Assembly: GCA_020629835.1 (NCBI GenBank)
Contig: JAHDCO010000014.1
Span: 7,788-49,409, forward strand
Length of the DNA stretch: 41,622 nt
Direction: 5' to 3'
Origin: Granulosicoccaceae bacterium
GTDB taxonomy: Bacteria; Pseudomonadota; Gammaproteobacteria; Granulosicoccales; Granulosicoccaceae
Under the pieces are notes generated by a model. It was not told the origin of the DNA and made no database searches. It saw nothing but the letters and a program-made list of their open reading frames with translations. Below are positions 7,591 through 22,827 of the stretch, piece after piece. The stretch's first letter is position 1. The number at the start of each line of letters is the position of its first letter. The position numbers were made by a program, and so were the translations under genes.

Positions 7591-8103
7591 GTGAGCGCCG
7601 TACCCGCACATGAGCATGACGAAGAGTCGGCAGAGGTATATCGGCAGGCCTACTTACAGGCCGTCAAGTTGCTTGTTACGCGAGAGCATACGCGGCTGGA
7701 AATAGAAACCAAGCTGGCCAAAAAGCAGGTTCCGTGTCACATCATTGACCGAGTGCTTGAACAGCTCCAGCGTGAGGGGTATCAGTGCGATGTGCGTTTT
7801 GCCACGCTGTTTACTGAGCAGCGGCAGCGAAAGGGTTTTGGACCGCTGTCTATTCGAGCAAAGCTGCAAGAGCGAGGTGTTGAGCGTTCGGTCATAGCCG
7901 ATGTTATCGATGGCCTGGATACCGACTGGGGTGCTCAAGCGGCAGAAGCGCTGCGTCGCAGGTTCAGTGCAGACGAACTGACGGATGATTCACAAAGACA
8001 ACGTAGCCGGGTAGCCCGATTCCTTCAATCCCGTGGGTTTTCACCCAGCATTGCCCGCAGGGCACTGGATAATTGTTTGAACGAGCTGTCTGACGAAACC
8101 TGA
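7591..8103 (+). CDS. recX: Regulatory protein RecX
   Basis: RecX binds RecA filaments and limits recombinase activity. The 170-residue product is alpha-helical and shows the three-helix repeats of the family, for example [32 protein letters not shown] and the final [17 protein letters not shown]. It starts with GTG at 7591 behind a strong AAGGAG site seven bases upstream. It follows recA by 103 bp across the hairpin, and alaS follows 55 bp later. Confidence 0.93.
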
Positions 8104-12809: not shown

Positions 12810-13814
12810 ATGACGCCACACTATCTTGATTCATTGGGTGTGCACGAAGGCAGGGGTCAAGTTCATACCGGCTTCCTGCTTCAAGACACGTTCGCCATGA
12901 TGCCGTTCATCTCATCGCTCGAGCCGATGAGAGCCGCTAACCGCTACAGCGAAAAGCACTTATACAGTTGGCAACTCTTTAGCGAAACCGGTCAGCCTGT
13001 CATAGGCTCAAACGGTTTACCGATGAGTGTTGATGATGCGTTCAGTGATCAATGGAAACTGGACCGTTTGATCGTTTGCGGAGCGCACGATCCTAAAACG
13101 TTGTGTGCACCGGATACCCTACGTGCATTGCGTCGATTCAGCGGCCGAGGGGTTAGAATCGGCGCTCTGGACACCGGTTGCTACATGCTGGCCCGGGCGA
13201 ACCTTATAGGTTCCCGTCGTTGCACTGTGCATTGGGAAAACATGCCCGGTTTTCGACAAGAGTTTCCGCAGTTAAAAGTCTCTAGCGAATTGTTTGAGAT
13301 CGACGGCAATTTGTTTACGTGTTCGGGTGGGCACGCCGCACTCGACATGATGCTAACTATGGTCTCAGAAGATCACGGCCATGAGTTGGCGTCTAAGGCG
13401 GCAGAATTATTCATCCACAGCACCATCAGAAACTCAAACGAGTCCCAGCGCATGAGTGTTGTTGAAAGGGATGGTATTTTTCACCCTAAGTTGGTCAGCG
13501 CCATCGAGCTGATGGAAGCGAACATCGATAACCCCTTACGCAGTGAAGAGCTTGCCAACATTGTCAATCTATCGAAGCGCCAATTGGAGCGACTGTTTCG
13601 TTCGCACCTCGACGCTACGCCCACAATGCATTACCAACAAATCCGCTTGCGTGCTGGCCATAATTTACTGCTCCAGACCAGCTTATCTGTATTGGAGGTA
13701 GCGGACGCCTGCGGCTTTAGTTCGGCAGACCACTTTTCGAAACGATTCCGAGCCTTTTTTGGCCAAAGCCCTACCGATTTAAGGCAGCAACACTTTGGCC
13801 AGCGAAAACGTTGA
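12810..13814 (+). CDS. GlxA-family transcriptional regulator (DJ-1/PfpI-like plus AraC HTH)
   Basis: A 334-residue activator-type protein. The N-terminal DJ-1/PfpI-like sensor domain (about 15-200) keeps a cysteine at the nucleophile-elbow position, DTGCYMLA with Cys124. The C-terminal AraC/XylS DNA-binding domain (about 225-330) has two helix-turn-helix units, SEELANIVNLSKRQLERLF and VLEVADACGFSSADHFSKRFRAFFG. This architecture is shared with GbdR and CdhR, which control glycine betaine, dimethylglycine and carnitine catabolism in Pseudomonas. The next genes are an MttB-like methyltransferase and a DMGDH-like enzyme, so it is inferred to control them in response to a methylated amine. The ligand is not known. 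Confidence 0.85.
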   Translation: MTPHYLDSLGVHEGRGQVHTGFLLQDTFAMMPFISSLEPMRAANRYSEKHLYSWQLFSETGQPVIGSNGLPMSVDDAFSDQWKLDRLIVCGAHDPKTLCAPDTLRALRRFSGRGVRIGALDTGCYMLARANLIGSRRCTVHWENMPGFRQEFPQLKVSSELFEIDGNLFTCSGGHAALDMMLTMVSEDHGHELASKAAELFIHSTIRNSNESQRMSVVERDGIFHPKLVSAIELMEANIDNPLRSEELANIVNLSKRQLERLFRSHLDATPTMHYQQIRLRAGHNLLLQTSLSVLEVADACGFSSADHFSKRFRAFFGQSPTDLRQQHFGQRKR

Positions 13815-13934: not shown

Positions 13935-13951
13935 GTTTAGGAGGTTTTTCA

Positions 13952-15514
13952 ATGAGTGCAAACCCTAATGTGGCTCGTCGCCGTGGTGCGAGAGCCGCCA
14001 AGCGTGCGCTGCGCGCGGCACCCTTATCCGATGCGGATCGAGCGGTTAGACCCGGCATGTCCGGCGGCGGCTTTCAACCGCTAAAACCCGAGGATTTGTT
14101 AAAGGTCAATGAGGCCGTTATGCACACCCTCGAACATATTGGCTTGTCTCAAGCAATTCCGTCTTGCGTTGACGCGGTGGTTAATGCCGGTGGTACTTAT
14201 AAAGACGGGCGGCTTTACTTCCCAAGATCCATGGTGGAAGACACCTTAGCCAACTGCGCGCGGAACTTCGTTTTGCACGGTCAGGATCCCAAGCACGATA
14301 TGGAAGTCTCCGGCAACAAAGTTTATTTCGGAACTGCCGGAGCGGCGGTTCATATTGTCGATATTGAGAATAAGCATTACCGGGAATCGACGTTAAAAGA
14401 TTTGTATGACATGGCGCGACTGGTCGATGAATTGGATCATATTCATTATTTCCAGCGCTGTTTGGTGGCTCGGGACGTTGATGAGCCTGCCGACATGGAT
14501 TTCAACACCTGTTACGCGGCTGTAAGCGGTACTTCGAAACATGTCGGAACCAGCTGGGTAATGCCCGAGCATGTCGAAGCATCACTGAAAATGCTGCATG
14601 TCATCGCCGGCGGCGAAAAGCAATGGCGAGAGCGCCCCTTTGTAAGTCAATCGAACTGTTTTGTCGTTCCGCCACTTCGCTTTGCTGAAGATGCCTGCGC
14701 TTGCATGGAAGTGGCTGTGCGAGGCGGCATGCCCGTACTGCTGCTGGCCGCCGGTCAGGCGGGGGCTACAAGTCCTGCGGCGTTAGCTGGCAGTGTGGTG
14801 CAGGAGGTGGCAGAGGTATTAGCCGGTTTGGTGTGGGTGAATTTAATGGTGCCTGGGCATCCGGCCATGTACGGCACCTGGCCGTTTGTGTCGGATTTAC
14901 GCACCGGTTCAATGAGTGGCGGTAGTGGAGAACAAGCCGTGTTGATGGCCGCCTGTGGTCAGATGGGTCGTTACTACGATCTTCCCACCGGAATTGCTGC
15001 CGGAATGACGGACGCCAAGTTACCGGATGCGCAGTCTGGTTTTGAGAAAGGTTATACGGTGACTCTGGCAGCACACAGCGGTGCCAATCTTGTTTACGAA
15101 TCGGCCGGTATGCATGCCTCTTTGCTGGGCTGTAGCTATGAATCGATGGTTATCGACAACGACATGCTGGGTGCCATCAACCGCACGGTTCGAGGTATTG
15201 AAGTCAATGACGAAACCTTGTCCCTGGATGCAATAAAAGATGTGTGTGTTGATGGACCTTCTCACTTTCTAGGTCACGGCCAAACTCTGGAATTGATGCA
15301 AAAGGAGTACATCTACCCAGAGGTGGGCGACCGGACAAGCCCTAAGGAATGGGTTGAACAGGGCAAACCAGATCTCATTTCTACCGCACGTAAACGCGTG
15401 GATCAGATCTTAGCGACGCATCATCCTGTGCATGTGTCGGCTGAGGCCGATGCCGCCATTCGAAAAGAATTTAATGTGTTGTTCGAAAAAGCACCCTTGC
15501 AACCTAACAGTTAG
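13952..15514 (+). CDS. MttB-family (trimethylamine methyltransferase-like) protein, non-pyrrolysine type
   Basis: A 520-residue member of the MttB superfamily (COG5598). Archaeal MttB moves a methyl group from trimethylamine to a corrinoid protein and contains pyrrolysine at an in-frame TAG. This reading frame has no internal TAG, so it belongs to the non-Pyl group, which includes glycine betaine, proline betaine and carnitine methyltransferases. Recognisable regions include FGTAGAAVHIVDIE and GSMSGGSGEQAVLMAACGQMGRYYDLPTG (split here by a note: GSMSGGSGEQ then AVLMAACGQM). The start at 13952 is set by AGGAGG seven bases upstream; an earlier in-frame start is not supported. The flavoprotein gene follows after 9 bp. 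No corrinoid-binding partner gene is in the window. The substrate is probably a methylated amine but is not defined by the sequence. Confidence 0.88.
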   Translation: MSANPNVARRRGARAAKRALRAAPLSDADRAVRPGMSGGGFQPLKPEDLLKVNEAVMHTLEHIGLSQAIPSCVDAVVNAGGTYKDGRLYFPRSMVEDTLANCARNFVLHGQDPKHDMEVSGNKVYFGTAGAAVHIVDIENKHYRESTLKDLYDMARLVDELDHIHYFQRCLVARDVDEPADMDFNTCYAAVSGTSKHVGTSWVMPEHVEASLKMLHVIAGGEKQWRERPFVSQSNCFVVPPLRFAEDACACMEVAVRGGMPVLLLAAGQAGATSPAALAGSVVQEVAEVLAGLVWVNLMVPGHPAMYGTWPFVSDLRTGSMSGGSGEQAVLMAACGQMGRYYDLPTGIAAGMTDAKLPDAQSGFEKGYTVTLAAHSGANLVYESAGMHASLLGCSYESMVIDNDMLGAINRTVRGIEVNDETLSLDAIKDVCVDGPSHFLGHGQTLELMQKEYIYPEVGDRTSPKEWVEQGKPDLISTARKRVDQILATHHPVHVSAEADAAIRKEFNVLFEKAPLQPNS

Positions 15515-15523
15515 GAAACGAAT

Positions 15524-17950
15524 TTGAAAACTCACGCTCGTGTTGTCGTCATCGGCGGTGGTGTGGTGGGCGCTAGTACGCTGTACCACCTGGCCAAACG
15601 CGGTTGGACCGATACTGTTCTGGTTGAAATGGATGAGTTAACGTCCGGTTCAACGTGGCACGCCGCTGGCAACATTCCAACGTTCTCATCGTCGCGCAAC
15701 ATGATCAAGTTGCAGCACTACAGCACGCAGCTTTACGCTGAGCTTTGCGATCAGGAGGATTACCCGTTTGCTTACCACCAAACCGGCTCTATCCGTTTGG
15801 CACAGAACCAACCTCGCTGGGAAGAGTTTGAACACGTAACCGCTATGGCCAATGCCATGGGCTTTGGGTACGAGTTGATTGATAACGCAGAAATGAAACG
15901 CCGTCATCCGTATCTGGAAGATCACGGTTTGCAGGGTGCTTTGTGGGATCCCAACGACGGTGACATCGACCCGAGTCAGCTTACTCAGGCGTTGGCTTCC
16001 AAGGCTCGGAAAATGGGTGCAGAGATTAACCGTTTTACCCGGGTGACAGCGTTCGAACGAACCGATAACAATGAGTGGCTGGTCAAAACAGATAAGGGCG
16101 ACATCACGTGCGAATACATCGTTAATGCCGGTGGGTACCGTGGGCACGAAGTATCGGATATGGCGGGTAAGTTTTTACCGATTGCTACGATGGAACATCA
16201 GTACCTGGTAACTGAATCTATCCCTGAATTAGAGTCGTTGGATGAGTTGCTACCGCTGGTACGTGACCCCGACGATTCTTACTACTTACGGCAGGAAAAA
16301 CAGGGCTTGATCCTCGGGCCTTATGAGTGGGGCGCCACACCGCATTGGACTGACGGCAAAGTGCCCGATAATTTTGCTTACGAGCTATATCCCGATGATT
16401 TGGATCGTTTGGAGTGGTACATCGAACGCGCGTGTGAGCGTATGCCTATCCTGGGTAGCGTAGGCGTTCAACGAGTGATTAATGGCCCTATACCGTACGC
16501 GCCTGACGGTTTACCGTACATCGGTCCTGCATTTGGTTTACCAAACTTTTATCACTGCAACAGTTTCAGCTTTGGTGTGTGCCAGGGTGGTGGTGCAGGT
16601 AAGTCAATGGCGGAATACATCATTGACGGTAAGCCGGAATGGGATCTTTGGATGGCTGATCCTCGACGATACACAGAGTACGCCGATCAGAAGTACGTTG
16701 TGGCTCGTGCAACAGAGTTGTATCAGCGCGAATACGCCATTGCGTTTCCACACGATGAATGGCCTGCAGGTCGTCCTGCATTAACGTCTCCGCTCTATGA
16801 GCGATTGAAAGAGAAGGGTGCACAGTTCGGTGCGCGTGGCGGCTGGGAACGAGCTACATGGTTTCCTAAAGAAGGCGACACCGTTGAAGCCGAAGCCAGT
16901 TACCACCACGAACATTGGTTCGATCGTGTCGGTGAAGAATGTCGTCATGTACGCTCAAAAGTGGGCGTTCTCGACTTGGGCGGCTTTGCAAAGTACGAAG
17001 TGCAGGGTGAGGGGGCGGCCGATTGGTTAGATTCAATCATTGCAGGCAATTTACCCAAAGTCAGCCGTTTATCGCTGTCTTACTTCTGTGCACCTGATGG
17101 CGGTGTGATGTGTGAAATGACTATCACGCGTTTGGCTGAAAATCACTTCTTATTGATCACCGCTGCTGCAGCTAAATGGCACGACATGCAGTGGTTGCAG
17201 GAACACCTTCCCGCTGAACACGCGATAGAAATTACTGACATTACGAAGGACTGGGACACGTTGGTTGTGGCCGGCCCCGATGCAAGAAGGCTTTTGCAAA
17301 AGCTAACTAACGCGGGCTTGGATAACCAATCCTTTCCATGGTTAAGCTATCAGGCATTGCAAATTGGGGATGTCAGTGTGCGCGCGTTGCGTGTGAATTA
17401 CGTCGGTGAGTTGGGTTGGGAATTACATGTTAATCCAGGTAACACCTTGGCGGTCTACGACGCGTTGATGGAAGCTGGCGCTGAGTTTGATGTGCGTGAC
17501 TTTGGTTTGTATGCCATGGAATCCATGCGTTTGGAAAAGTGCTACCGCGCTTGGAAGGTGGAACTGGATAGCGAATATTCACCGCTGCGCTCAGGCCTGG
17601 ATCGTTTCGTTAACCTGGACAAGGATGCTTTTATCGGTAAACAGGCTATACAAGCTGAAGTAGATGCCGGGTTGAAAGATGTGTTCGTTCCTATGATTAT
17701 GGAAGGTGGAAACACCGAAGCTCTATATGGATGCCCCGTACGCCACGGAAATGACATCGTTGGTTATGTAACCTCAGGAGGTTATGGACATTGTCTGGAG
17801 AAGAGTATCGCGCTGGGCTATGTGCGAACGGATTTGGCAACCGCAGGTACAACGGTAGAAATCCAGGTACTGGGTGAGTGGCGCTCGGCTGAGATTGGCA
17901 CAGAACCCTTGTTTGATCCAACTAACGAACGACCACGCGCTGACGCTTAG
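15524..17950 (+). CDS. Dimethylglycine/sarcosine dehydrogenase-like FAD protein with GcvT folate domain
   Basis: An 808-residue two-part enzyme. The N-terminal FAD-dependent DAO domain (about 1-390) has VVVIGGGVVGAS at 7-18 and the motif SGSTWHAAGN, in which His46 matches the histidine that carries covalent FAD in DMGDH relatives. A FAO_M-type linker follows. The C-terminal GcvT/aminomethyltransferase folate-binding domain (about 440-800) includes NYVGELGWELHV and YAMESMRLEKCYRAW. Such enzymes oxidatively demethylate dimethylglycine or sarcosine and pass formaldehyde to tetrahydrofolate. The start is TTG at 15524 with AGGAAA upstream that overlaps the previous stop, so the pair is surely cotranscribed. 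The exact substrate is inferred from family and context. Confidence 0.88.
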   Translation: MKTHARVVVIGGGVVGASTLYHLAKRGWTDTVLVEMDELTSGSTWHAAGNIPTFSSSRNMIKLQHYSTQLYAELCDQEDYPFAYHQTGSIRLAQNQPRWEEFEHVTAMANAMGFGYELIDNAEMKRRHPYLEDHGLQGALWDPNDGDIDPSQLTQALASKARKMGAEINRFTRVTAFERTDNNEWLVKTDKGDITCEYIVNAGGYRGHEVSDMAGKFLPIATMEHQYLVTESIPELESLDELLPLVRDPDDSYYLRQEKQGLILGPYEWGATPHWTDGKVPDNFAYELYPDDLDRLEWYIERACERMPILGSVGVQRVINGPIPYAPDGLPYIGPAFGLPNFYHCNSFSFGVCQGGGAGKSMAEYIIDGKPEWDLWMADPRRYTEYADQKYVVARATELYQREYAIAFPHDEWPAGRPALTSPLYERLKEKGAQFGARGGWERATWFPKEGDTVEAEASYHHEHWFDRVGEECRHVRSKVGVLDLGGFAKYEVQGEGAADWLDSIIAGNLPKVSRLSLSYFCAPDGGVMCEMTITRLAENHFLLITAAAAKWHDMQWLQEHLPAEHAIEITDITKDWDTLVVAGPDARRLLQKLTNAGLDNQSFPWLSYQALQIGDVSVRALRVNYVGELGWELHVNPGNTLAVYDALMEAGAEFDVRDFGLYAMESMRLEKCYRAWKVELDSEYSPLRSGLDRFVNLDKDAFIGKQAIQAEVDAGLKDVFVPMIMEGGNTEALYGCPVRHGNDIVGYVTSGGYGHCLEKSIALGYVRTDLATAGTTVEIQVLGEWRSAEIGTEPLFDPTNERPRADA

Positions 17951-19657: not shown

Positions 19658-20116
19658 GAGAGCGTTACTCGAGCCCCATTGATATGAGGTAGATATCGGC
19701 GCTGCAATTTGATTCTGTATTGTCTTCGGGCGATAAATTCATGACTACACAGCGTAAGGGTTGACCGTGAGCGTTGGTTCTCAAAAATTGGGCTGTACAA
19801 ACCCGACAGTCTAATTAACGCGTTCAATTTTCAGTGTGCCGCCGGTGGATTGACTACGCCTATTTCGGTCTCAATAAGTTGCAAGGCCTATGAAACCTCC
19901 CTAGCTCGTTAAAGGCGCAGGCCTCTGGGCATTCGAGCGAAAAAATCGAAGATTATTTGTGACTCAAAAATGTGCATGCTGAACTAAGCGAGGGCAATGT
20001 CGTTTATAGGCTTTCAAGAGTCTCAAAATTGGCCCCTCACAAGGTGGTTCCGTGGCACACATACCCCGGCAGTTCCGGCTACCATAAGCCTTCGCTTCTC
20101 GGTGAGTCCCAATTCC
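19658..20116. other. 459-bp region with no supported gene
   Basis: Lies between the divergent GGDEF gene and ABC ATPase gene and must contain both promoters. A 63-codon minus-strand frame (19636-19827) has no family resemblance or ribosome-binding site and is not called. The ABC ATPase frame is open back to 19997, but the extra 40 residues are not family-like. No clear -35/-10 pair, repeat or RNA structure was recognised. Confidence 0.5.
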
Positions 20117-20914
20117 ATGGCAGATTTAATTTCCGACAACCTCAATATGGTGTTCACCACACCAGCGGGGGAGTCTGTGCACGCGCTAAAAGACGTGACG
20201 TTTACGCTGAAAAAAGGCGAACTACTGTCCGTGCTGGGCCCTTCGGGCTGCGGTAAGACAACACTACTGAACATCATCGCGGGTTTTTTGCGTCCGACCG
20301 GTGGATCAATCTCGTTAGACAAGAACGAAATCGACGGGCCGGGTGTGGAGCGCGGTATGGTCTTTCAGCAAGGCGCGCTATTCGAATGGTTGACCGTGGC
20401 TGAAAATGTTGATTTCGGGTTGCGCATGAGAGGGGCCAGCGGGAAGGACACAGCGAAGAAAGTGGAGGAATGGCTCGAGATTGTTGGCCTGCAGGGGTTT
20501 GGTAACGTTCCCACCTATCAACTGTCTGGCGGCATGCAACAGCGGGTAGCGCTGGCGCGTTGCTTGATCAACGATCCTGACGTGATCTTGATGGATGAAC
20601 CGTTGGGTGCCCTGGATGCGCTGACTCGGGAAAAGATGCAATCGCTGGTACTGAAAATCTGGAAGGAGACCGGCAAGACCATCATGATCATCACCCACTC
20701 GGTAGAAGAAGCGCTGCTACTGGGTGAGAGACTGTTTGTTATGGCACCCAGACCTGGACGACTGCACAAAGAGTATCGCTTGCCGTTTGCTGAGTGGGGT
20801 CTCGACCAAGACCTTCGAGATGTCAAAAACAACGAGCAGTTTGGTCAAAACCGCGAAGAAATTCTGGCGATGATCTGGAATATGGAAGAAGAAATCATGG
20901 GGAAGGCTAGCTGA
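20117..20914 (+). CDS. ABC transporter ATP-binding protein, taurine/nitrate/sulfonate type
   Basis: A 265-residue NBD of the TauB/SsuB/NrtD group that powers small-molecule import. Walker A GPSGCGKTT is at 41-49, the signature LSGGMQQRVALAR follows, then Walker B VILMDEPLGALD and the switch histidine in IIITHSVEEAL. The ATG at 20117 (MADLISDNLN) is chosen because the upstream in-frame ATG at 19997 adds 40 non-conserved residues and has its GAGGG only two bases away. GGTGAG lies about ten bases before 20117. Its TGA stop overlaps the ATG of the permease by one base. There is no binding-protein gene beside this pair. Confidence 0.92.
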   Translation: MADLISDNLNMVFTTPAGESVHALKDVTFTLKKGELLSVLGPSGCGKTTLLNIIAGFLRPTGGSISLDKNEIDGPGVERGMVFQQGALFEWLTVAENVDFGLRMRGASGKDTAKKVEEWLEIVGLQGFGNVPTYQLSGGMQQRVALARCLINDPDVILMDEPLGALDALTREKMQSLVLKIWKETGKTIMIITHSVEEALLLGERLFVMAPRPGRLHKEYRLPFAEWGLDQDLRDVKNNEQFGQNREEILAMIWNMEEEIMGKAS

Positions 20915-22827
20915 TGGATACGTCACCACGTGGCCTCATCGTAGGCTTCCTGTTTATTGCATTGCTTGCAACGCTGGTTTGGACCTACTTGCACGGTCGT
21001 AAAATCATCGCAACTGAAAAAACCGATGCGGTGTTTGGTAATCCCGAGCGAGCATTGGGTGGATATCACTGGGTAATTGCCGGTGTATCCACGGTGCTGC
21101 TGTTTTGGTTGTTCTTCTCCTGGGATGCAGCGCGATCGTATTTCCCGAGAGCAGCGAACGAGTTGTGCCAGGTTGCCAAAGTCACTTCGGCTTTGAACCC
21201 GATACGCAGTGCGTTTCCGATTGAAACTCGGCTACTACGAGGCACACAGCTGTTGGCTCGTGATGCGCGGCAGTTGGATGATTTGGAAGCGCAGTTAGAG
21301 ACCTTATCGGTAAGCGATGCTGATCGCGCGGAGCTGCAAAATTCGGTCGACACTTTGCGCACCATGTTGGTGTCAATGGCCAGCACCGATAACTTAGGCG
21401 ACGATACCAAAGCAGCCATATCTGACGTCGCGAATCAGATCAAAACGGTCACCGCTAATCTAAGCTCTGCGAATTATCCAGAAAACATTGATTCTGCTGA
21501 AATGGAGGCGGGATTAGCACAACCGGGTTGGGGCAGAGGAACGACAGAAATACCATCATTACCTGCTTCACCTCGTGGGTTTAAGTTTGACGCAGCTGCC
21601 ACCGAATTGCAGGCAATCGCCCAGACGTTCTCCGGAATTCGCAACACGGGCCCTGTGTTTGAGAGCAACCTGGCCGCTGTGCAAGCGCAGCTAGATGTTA
21701 TCGAGGAGTCTCCAGATGTCCTGGATGATGAGGCTCTGGATGCACGCGATCGCTTTGTTAAAAACCTTGGAAAAATCGCTAAGCGAATTGATGACGGTAA
21801 GTTATTTCCCGCCCAGGCGTTAAATCCGATCGAAGACGCGGTGATAGGGATTGAGCAGGCTAAGCGCGACGAACAGGGTGGTCTGCTGTGGATAGACCGA
21901 CTGGCCATGCCATCCGGGACAATCGTGGCTGGTAACACCGCCTGTTCAGAACAGGGCTCCGGCCGATGGTTACCCAAACCTTCGGATACCGTAGCGACGC
22001 TTGCTCGCATTGCGAATCCGAACATCGGATACAAGAACATCCCGTTGCTTTGGTACGAAATGCGCCCAGCAGGAGAACTCTTGGCCATGATCATTCCGGA
22101 CTGGGTGGCAGATCTGGTTCCTGGTGATTACCCACGGCACGACGAGAACGGTAATGTGCCAGACAACTTTAAGTCCAAGGTGCTGAACGTTGCCACAGGC
22201 GATTATTCAACGTTCAATTTGCCAGTACCGATCGGCCACATTTGGGATTCGGTAGTGCGCGTGGTAATCGGCTTGTTCCTGGGCATATTGCTGGGTGTGC
22301 CGCTGGGGCTCTTTATGGGTTTATCGCGCTTTGCCAAAGGCTTCTTTGATCCCATGATTGAGCTTTATCGACCCGTACCGCCACTGGCATGGGCTCCGTT
22401 GATTTTGACAATCTTCGGGATTGGTGACGACGGAAAGATCTTCTTACTCTTTATGGTGGCGTTCGCCATCATGGTTATCTCGGCTCGAACCGGTGCGACC
22501 GGCACTCAGTTGTCGAAGATTCACGCAGCGCATTCGCTGGGTGCCAGTAGTCGACAAATCATCCGGCGCGTGATCCTGCCGAATTCTTTACCTGAAATCT
22601 TGACCGGGATTCGTATTGCTATTGGGGTCTGCTGGGGAACCTTGGTCGCGGCTGAGATGCTTGCCGGTACCACGGGTATCGGGTTTGTGGAGAATGTTGC
22701 GCGTAAGCAGTCAGACTACGAGACCATCTGGATGACCATTATATTGCTGGGTCTACTCGGTCTCATTTTTGACCTGATCATGCGCTGGGTGATCAACCGC
22801 ACAATCCCATGGCGTGGCAAGGGGTAA
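20914..22827 (+). CDS. ABC transporter permease with very long N-terminal extension
   Basis: A 637-residue inner-membrane protein. The C-terminal third (about 440-637) is an ordinary TauC/SsuC-type permease with several membrane segments and the EAA loop GASSRQIIRRVILPNSLPEI near 543-562. The first 440 residues are unusual. Two membrane segments (about 8-24 and 52-70) are followed by some 350 residues that are rich in Asp, Glu and Ala, partly coiled-coil-like, and likely face the periplasm. Family permeases are usually about 250-280 residues. The gene is translationally coupled to the ATPase. The extension may take part in substrate capture or anchoring, since no binding protein is encoded next to it; that is inference. 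Confidence 0.88.
   Translation: MDTSPRGLIVGFLFIALLATLVWTYLHGRKIIATEKTDAVFGNPERALGGYHWVIAGVSTVLLFWLFFSWDAARSYFPRAANELCQVAKVTSALNPIRSAFPIETRLLRGTQLLARDARQLDDLEAQLETLSVSDADRAELQNSVDTLRTMLVSMASTDNLGDDTKAAISDVANQIKTVTANLSSANYPENIDSAEMEAGLAQPGWGRGTTEIPSLPASPRGFKFDAAATELQAIAQTFSGIRNTGPVFESNLAAVQAQLDVIEESPDVLDDEALDARDRFVKNLGKIAKRIDDGKLFPAQALNPIEDAVIGIEQAKRDEQGGLLWIDRLAMPSGTIVAGNTACSEQGSGRWLPKPSDTVATLARIANPNIGYKNIPLLWYEMRPAGELLAMIIPDWVADLVPGDYPRHDENGNVPDNFKSKVLNVATGDYSTFNLPVPIGHIWDSVVRVVIGLFLGILLGVPLGLFMGLSRFAKGFFDPMIELYRPVPPLAWAPLILTIFGIGDDGKIFLLFMVAFAIMVISARTGATGTQLSKIHAAHSLGASSRQIIRRVILPNSLPEILTGIRIAIGVCWGTLVAAEMLAGTTGIGFVENVARKQSDYETIWMTIILLGLLGLIFDLIMRWVINRTIPWRGKG

Follow-up and report, generated by a model that had tools for sequence, protein, structure and literature searches.

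An MttB homologue beside a DMGDH-like flavoprotein gene very probably relies on a corrinoid protein encoded elsewhere in the genome

An aerobic MtgB–MtgC–MtgD route was described in Ruegeria pomeroyi in 2025. In that report, both methionine synthesis and growth on glycine betaine depend on mtgC and mtgD, mtgC homologues occur in SAR116, SAR324 and SUP05, genes for the next demethylation steps are frequently found near mtgBCD, and one genome can contain as many as seven open reading frames (ORFs) of the MttB family PF06253 (PMC12478193). For Eubacterium limosum, a model has been presented in which a single corrinoid protein serves several MttB homologues (PMC8604678). Distance between an MttB gene and the gene for its corrinoid protein is therefore to be expected and nothing strange. 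Here we analyse a 41,622-nucleotide stretch of a Granulosicoccaceae genome, termed the window (positions 7788–49409 of contig C148 of genome G000), in which the gene for a non-pyrrolysine MttB homologue is followed, 9 bp beyond its stop codon, by a gene for a flavoprotein resembling dimethylglycine dehydrogenase (DMGDH). A first-pass annotation had pointed out this pair and the lack of a corrinoid partner gene, and had proposed that either a corrinoid protein acts from elsewhere or the pair works without one, which would be new chemistry. We conclude, with a probability of roughly 0.9, that the pair is an osmolyte-demethylation cassette that uses a corrinoid protein encoded elsewhere in the genome. 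The genes central to this conclusion are as follows; positions are window coordinates unless a contig or locus is named, and G, L and C denote genomes, loci and contigs of G000.

13952–15514, plus strand: non-pyrrolysine MttB-superfamily methyltransferase, 520 residues (PF06253, 387.8 bits against a cut-off of 25, profile positions 1–489 of 500)
15524–17950, plus strand: DMGDH-like flavoprotein with folate-binding GcvT domains, 808 residues (Pfam domains; matches to 5l46 and 1pj5)
C15, 21336–22043: stand-alone corrinoid protein (MtgC), 235 residues, with B12-binding and B12-binding_2 domains and the motif GDIHDIGKN

A profile search of the G000 assembly (4.34 Mb in 149 contigs, 97% complete) with the B12-binding family PF02310 matched six places, all on other contigs and none on C148. 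The absence of a corrinoid partner gene thus holds for the window but not for the genome, in which the C15 protein matches MttC (7xcn_M) with 132 bits. On the same strand of C15 the corrinoid gene is followed, in order, by genes for a DUF1638 protein, a DUF5981/MetV-like protein, a MetF-like protein (MTHFR), a Pterin_bind protein of the MtgA type and a RACo/RamA-type activase. Together these families make up the set required for accepting a methyl group on cobalt, transferring it to tetrahydrofolate (THF), oxidizing it and repairing oxidized cobalt. The genome search that the first-pass annotation had suggested, for an MttC/MtgC-like B12 protein and an MtgA-like methyltransferase, therefore finds both on C15. 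The cobalt-ligand motif G.V.GD[IV]H[DS][IV]GK is present in 55 of the 56 corrinoid loci examined, that of G000 among them, and the C15 protein is 76–77% identical to proteins of Rhodobacteraceae/Rhodobacterales genomes (G042, G043 and G073).

The gene content resembles that of the R. pomeroyi MtgBCD system in having a PF06253 enzyme, a separate corrinoid protein, a pterin-binding methyltransferase, MetF2, RamA and DUF1638, and in the occurrence of several PF06253 genes per genome, the marine setting of the bacteria and the frequent proximity of genes for the next demethylation (PMC12478193). It differs in that G000 has its corrinoid genes and the window MttB on separate contigs, and in that this MttB stands beside a DMGDH-like gene. 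PF02574 matches two places in G000, in frames of 374 and 294 residues; this search thus revealed no full-length MetH, in keeping with the split methionine synthase known from bacteria with MtgBCD. Homocysteine-methyltransferase-like genes on C18 and C65 are both candidates for MtgE.

Genomes that carry an MttB of the window's type mostly also carry the corrinoid protein. Among 398 genomes drawn evenly from the phylum, G000 included, window-type MttB (E ≤1e-100) was found in 29 and the corrinoid protein (E ≤1e-45) in 42; the latter was present in 29 of the 29 genomes with window-type MttB, compared with 13 of the 369 without. The associated Fisher p of about 3e-34 overstates the association, since two families (f52 and f56) account for 27 of the 29 carriers. 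We also searched 80 genomes selected for their MttB (the best 80 of 110 relatives) with the C15 protein. An MtgC orthologue was recovered from 69, at 75–98% identity (that of G062 in two pieces, 83 and 69%), and a distant homologue from two, G015 (51%) and G069 (45%); MtgC was not found in nine. The link extends across phyla, as the Actinomycetota carriers G038, G041, G045 and G079 have MtgC at 79–81% identity. In two loci, L070 (Aestuariivirga) and L072 (a Rhizobiales metagenome-assembled genome, MAG), window-type MttB (59–60%) is clustered with the corrinoid protein (75–81%), DUF1638 and an ORF of a homocysteine S-methyltransferase family, the L074 member of which matches PF02574. Together with the full corrinoid and THF methyl-transfer set of G000, the occurrence of MtgC in every evenly drawn carrier supports the proposal that a corrinoid protein acts from elsewhere.

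The eleven genomes lacking an orthologue were searched again: among the nine without MtgC, an MtgA-type gene was detected in five and a RACo-type activase in six. Four single-cell genomes (G047, G048, G050 and G076), the members without MtgC in a group of seven, were considered as a corrinoid-free group and rejected as such, their sisters G074, G077 and G078 having MtgC at 76–77% identity; MtgA-like and RACo-like genes are still present in three of the four. In G015, a MarineAlpha3 MAG, the 51% match forms the C-terminal part of a 626-residue protein behind a longer N-terminal domain, with a ferredoxin-like protein adjacent (L156, 211–2091); we take this fusion protein to be CmuA-like. A small cysteine-rich ferredoxin-like protein lacking a Pfam match is encoded in L070 (7588–8259) and has a 28% identical homologue in G000, beside a homocysteine-methyltransferase-like gene (L204, 701–1495). 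This ORF family occurs in 6 of 85 neighbourhood records and may aid cobalt reduction.

The window MttB belongs to the non-pyrrolysine part of its superfamily, as the first-pass annotation had recognized. It falls short of the TIGR02369 model for MttB proper (373 bits against a cut-off of 525), and its reading frame, from the ATG at 13952 to the TAG at 15512–15514, contains no internal in-frame TAG. An alignment of 84 window-type rows places three codons of interest:

14339–14341, plus strand: Gly130, equivalent to Gly110 of MttB; Gly in 84 of 84 rows
15005–15007, plus strand: Met352, aligned with Pyl334 of Methanosarcina barkeri MttB
15095–15097, plus strand: Tyr382, equivalent to Tyr364 of MttB; Tyr in 82 of 84 rows

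At the Pyl334 position, 70 of the 84 rows have Met and 14 have Ile. Gly110 and Tyr364 of MttB are tied to pyrrolysine activation in PMC9842639. The window MttB thus differs from the M. barkeri enzyme in having Met352 in place of pyrrolysine, but keeps the equivalents of both these residues. In MtgB of Desulfitobacterium hafniense (2qne, 9yce), Leu occupies the Pyl334 position, and Tyr and Leu stand where the window type has Gly and Tyr.

An AlphaFold2 model built from a 26-row alignment (mean predicted local distance difference test score 74.3) has the MttB fold. Its top match is the pyrrolysine enzyme 7xcl (Z 48.6, 29% identity; compare also 7xcn), followed by MttB of the MttB–MttC complex (Z 48.2) and MtgB 9yce (Z 46.7); across the two D. 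hafniense MtgB structures, which share the non-pyrrolysine MttB fold, Z is 46.7–46.8 and the match 200 bits, whereas structural alignment gives 26% identity, MtgB lies on a separate branch and its host is anaerobic. Residues 411–472 of the model are poorly predicted, and this span includes the equivalent of the dimerization loop through which MttB contacts MttC. In a 53-row tree, MtgB 9yce, five canonical paralogues and nine second-copy MttBs form one group (support 100/100); 7xcl is a long branch, and its placement and the root are uncertain. PF06253 matches nine places in G000, eight of them, counting that of the window, without an internal stop. Five of the open genes are canonical (633–763 bits); the remaining three, in the window, on C33 and at an edge of C102, score 320–388 bits. 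The ninth MttB-like gene (C68, 14688–15236) has an internal TGA.

The partner gene starts with TTG at 15524 and encodes a protein with the DAO, FAO_M, GCV_T and GCV_T_C domain architecture of dimethylglycine dehydrogenase. It matches mitochondrial DMGDH (5l46; compare also 4p9s) with 625 bits over residues 2–803 and dimethylglycine oxidase (DMGO, 1pj5) with 307 bits, in both cases along its full length, and has the STxHA motif. Its Glu531 aligns with Glu of DMGDH, in contrast to DMGO, which has Asp552 at this position, presumably a folate-site residue. A survey with the window MttB alone as bait yielded 110 relatives, of which the best 80 were kept. In 49 of these 80 loci no more than 500 bp separate window-type MttB from a DMGDH-like ORF, and in five of the 49 the two ORFs overlap by 4 bp when the longest starts are taken. 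One DMGDH-like ORF was counted in 28 of these loci and at least two in 24, by a rule that undercounts such genes (one copy in L063, for example, was overlooked). The pairing exceeds chance. Nevertheless, among the 69 loci with at least 900 bp of flank on each side, 22 have no DMGDH-like ORF; the flavoprotein is therefore a common companion of MttB, as expected of the next pathway step, and not an obligate methyl acceptor. Elsewhere in G000, GCV_T matches fall in 22 places, 21 of them over the cut-off and 14 in frames of about 800–1000 residues, a large set of folate-linked flavoproteins that are probably demethylating.

These genes and domains suggest a scheme in which the two enzymes would act in succession and only the first would need a corrinoid. 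MttB would make contact with the shared MtgC and methylate its Co(I), taking one methyl group from a quaternary amine, probably a betaine such as glycine betaine. A pterin-binding enzyme of the MtgA/MtgD type would pass the methyl group from MtgC to THF, the MetF/MetV-like proteins would turn methyl-THF into methylene-THF by oxidation, and the cobalt would be kept reduced by the RACo/RamA-type activase together with DUF1638. The DMGDH-like flavoprotein would then oxidize the tertiary amine left by MttB and load the next methyl carbon directly onto THF as methylene-THF, such that both methyl groups would end as methylene-THF. All eight open MttBs of G000, including that of the window, could share the one MtgC.

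Two further features precede the pair:

12810–13814, plus strand: AraC-family regulator, GbdR-like, first gene before MttB (DJ-1/PfpI, PF01965; HTH_18, PF12833)
13939–13944, plus strand: ribosome-binding site AGGAGG, 7 nt 5' of the MttB ATG, read from the sequence

The regulator, 137 bp from MttB, scores below the GbdR equivalog model NF052371 (333.4 bits against a cut-off of 480) and is hence called GbdR-like only. Its ORF family is found in 11 of 85 neighbourhood records, the window counted; of the ten others, eight have it immediately 5' of MttB. The next gene 3' of the pair encodes a GGDEF/EAL protein on the opposite strand, so the pair is an apparent two-gene unit. The closest transporter genes (19997–22827) lie past an opposite-strand gene, and no gene immediately flanking the pair pins down the substrate. 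The window MttB is 90% identical to proteins of two Granulosicoccaceae MAGs (L020 and L081), which makes this gammaproteobacterial family the very likely home of the host.

The corrinoid-free alternative that the first-pass annotation had raised could mean that THF bound to the neighbouring flavoprotein receives the methyl group from MttB without an intermediary, or that the pair demethylates its substrate without cobalt. The tight and sometimes overlapping arrangement of the two genes, the folate-binding GcvT domain of the partner and the lack of a B12-binding match on C148 would all suit such a mechanism, and several observations weigh against our reading of a shared corrinoid protein. The corrin-contact positions of the MttB–MttC complex, Gly372 and Glu225, are unconserved in the window type, as they are in MtgB (Phe, Lys); this loss is uninformative because the published contacts are backbone or variable positions. 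In three of the 80 carriers, G005 (a 4.6 Mb MAG), G018 (1.5 Mb) and G076 (1.4 Mb), MtgC, MtgA and RACo all went undetected, the small G018 and G076 probably being incomplete. MtgC probably has further roles, in methionine synthesis and with other MttBs, and its presence alone is no proof of use by the window MttB. The window type lies in the other half of the tree, outside the MtgB branch, and we found no activity data for it in the open-licence PMC literature searched. However, a corrinoid-free pair is difficult to reconcile with the occurrence of MtgC in all evenly drawn carriers and most MttB-selected ones compared with few other genomes, with the loci in which window-type MttB has no DMGDH-like ORF, with the clustering of MttB and MtgC in L070 and L072, and with the match of the model to MttB of the MttB–MttC complex. 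Among the titles and abstract openings listed by these literature searches, none dealt with corrinoid-independent action of an MttB or with this gene pair, which is not proof of absence. We found no support for a pair working without a corrinoid, judging from the sequences, and consider corrinoid independence of the window MttB very unlikely. The annotation had also named what would count against such a pair, namely a corrinoid protein and a THF methyltransferase that are in the genome and required for activity; both are present, and a requirement is reported for glycine betaine use by R. pomeroyi only (PMC12478193). Overall its interpretation is partly supported, the ordinary corrinoid-dependent option well and the corrinoid-free option not.

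A decayed or moonlighting MttB without methyltransferase activity, beside a working DMGDH, has the several paralogues in its favour, one of which (on C68) is interrupted. We find this scarcely credible for an intact ORF with a strong ribosome-binding site, in a family in which 26 diverse sequences share 69% mean column identity and many invariant residues. A quite different matter is whether the corrinoid mechanism operates on a substrate other than glycine betaine, such as proline betaine or another di- or trimethyl betaine, from which the flavoprotein would remove a further methyl group. This overlaps our reading, which leaves the substrate open, and we rate its chances only a little short of even. 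It would account for the separate branching of the window type from MtgB, the distinct active-site set (Met or Ile at Pyl334, Gly130 and Tyr382), the related loci with at least two flavoproteins and the aminotransferase and Xsc-like enzyme added in a relative on the R. pomeroyi megaplasmid; moreover, the five G000 paralogues that group with MtgB are better candidates for glycine betaine. On the other hand, the upstream regulator resembles the glycine-betaine regulator family, though under its cut-off, and neither the adjoining genes nor the distant transporters fix a substrate. That the Met/Ile-for-pyrrolysine branch, with its retained pyrrolysine-site Gly and Tyr, acts on a substrate class new for non-pyrrolysine MttBs seems doubtful to us, if less far-fetched than corrinoid-free transfer to THF in air.

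Under the preferred reading, in which the cassette uses the MtgC encoded on C15, the claim of new chemistry gives way to a testable picture: as many as eight MttB-type enzymes may depend on a single corrinoid protein with its activase. If one corrinoid protein does serve them, B12 supply could gate many osmolyte-degrading cassettes together. What is new is modest: in the tree, a phylogeny being among the checks that the annotation had called for, MttBs of the window type branch separately from MtgB, and their genes frequently have a DMGDH-like companion. The chemistry thus looks like a known one in a branch that has been little studied, and not like a B12-free route. The branch is widespread, in Pseudomonadota and Actinomycetota, and appears uncharacterized as far as the literature searches show. 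Its substrate could be found quickly because the product of demethylation should in turn be a substrate of the flavoprotein to which MttB is coupled.

Other B12-binding places of G000 were not taken as the partner. The frames around those on C9 (731 residues) and C147 (1128 residues) are presumably mutase-like, and that on C37 lies in a 502-residue ORF that reads as a radical-SAM protein. The C38 protein has both B12 domains and looks like a light regulator beside chlorophyll-synthesis-like genes. As read from the sequence of this locus (L008, 3016–13900), genes resembling those for dark-operative protochlorophyllide reductase subunits, chlorophyll synthase and geranylgeranyl reductase adjoin it, and aerobic anoxygenic phototrophy is a possibility for the host. 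The sixth place is a frame of 497 residues on C57; this contig also has an MttB paralogue in whose vicinity a DMGDH-like enzyme, a Rieske oxygenase and a protein resembling 2-oxoadipate dioxygenase (HGLS) are encoded (L197, 7338–15434).

Gene neighbourhoods indicate that substrates probably differ among relatives. On the megaplasmid of R. pomeroyi DSS-3 (NC_006569.1; L233, 8926–18246), the genes after that of a related MttB (49%) encode a class III aminotransferase, a pair of DMGDH-like flavoproteins and a thiamine-diphosphate enzyme resembling Xsc (401 bits, under the cut-off), and it is possible that a betaine is stripped here to a primary amine, transaminated and cleaved, as for a taurine-betaine-like compound. 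In loci of uncultured Alphaproteobacteria of the AG- series (L089, L090, L092 and L094–L097), MttB stands with DMGDH-like genes (two apiece in six of the loci and one in L092, which is shorter) and with a conserved set of ORFs, namely acyl-CoA dehydrogenase-like, CaiB-type CoA-transferase-like, ribokinase-like and thiamine-diphosphate enzyme ORFs, which suggests a CoA-activated betaine carboxylate.

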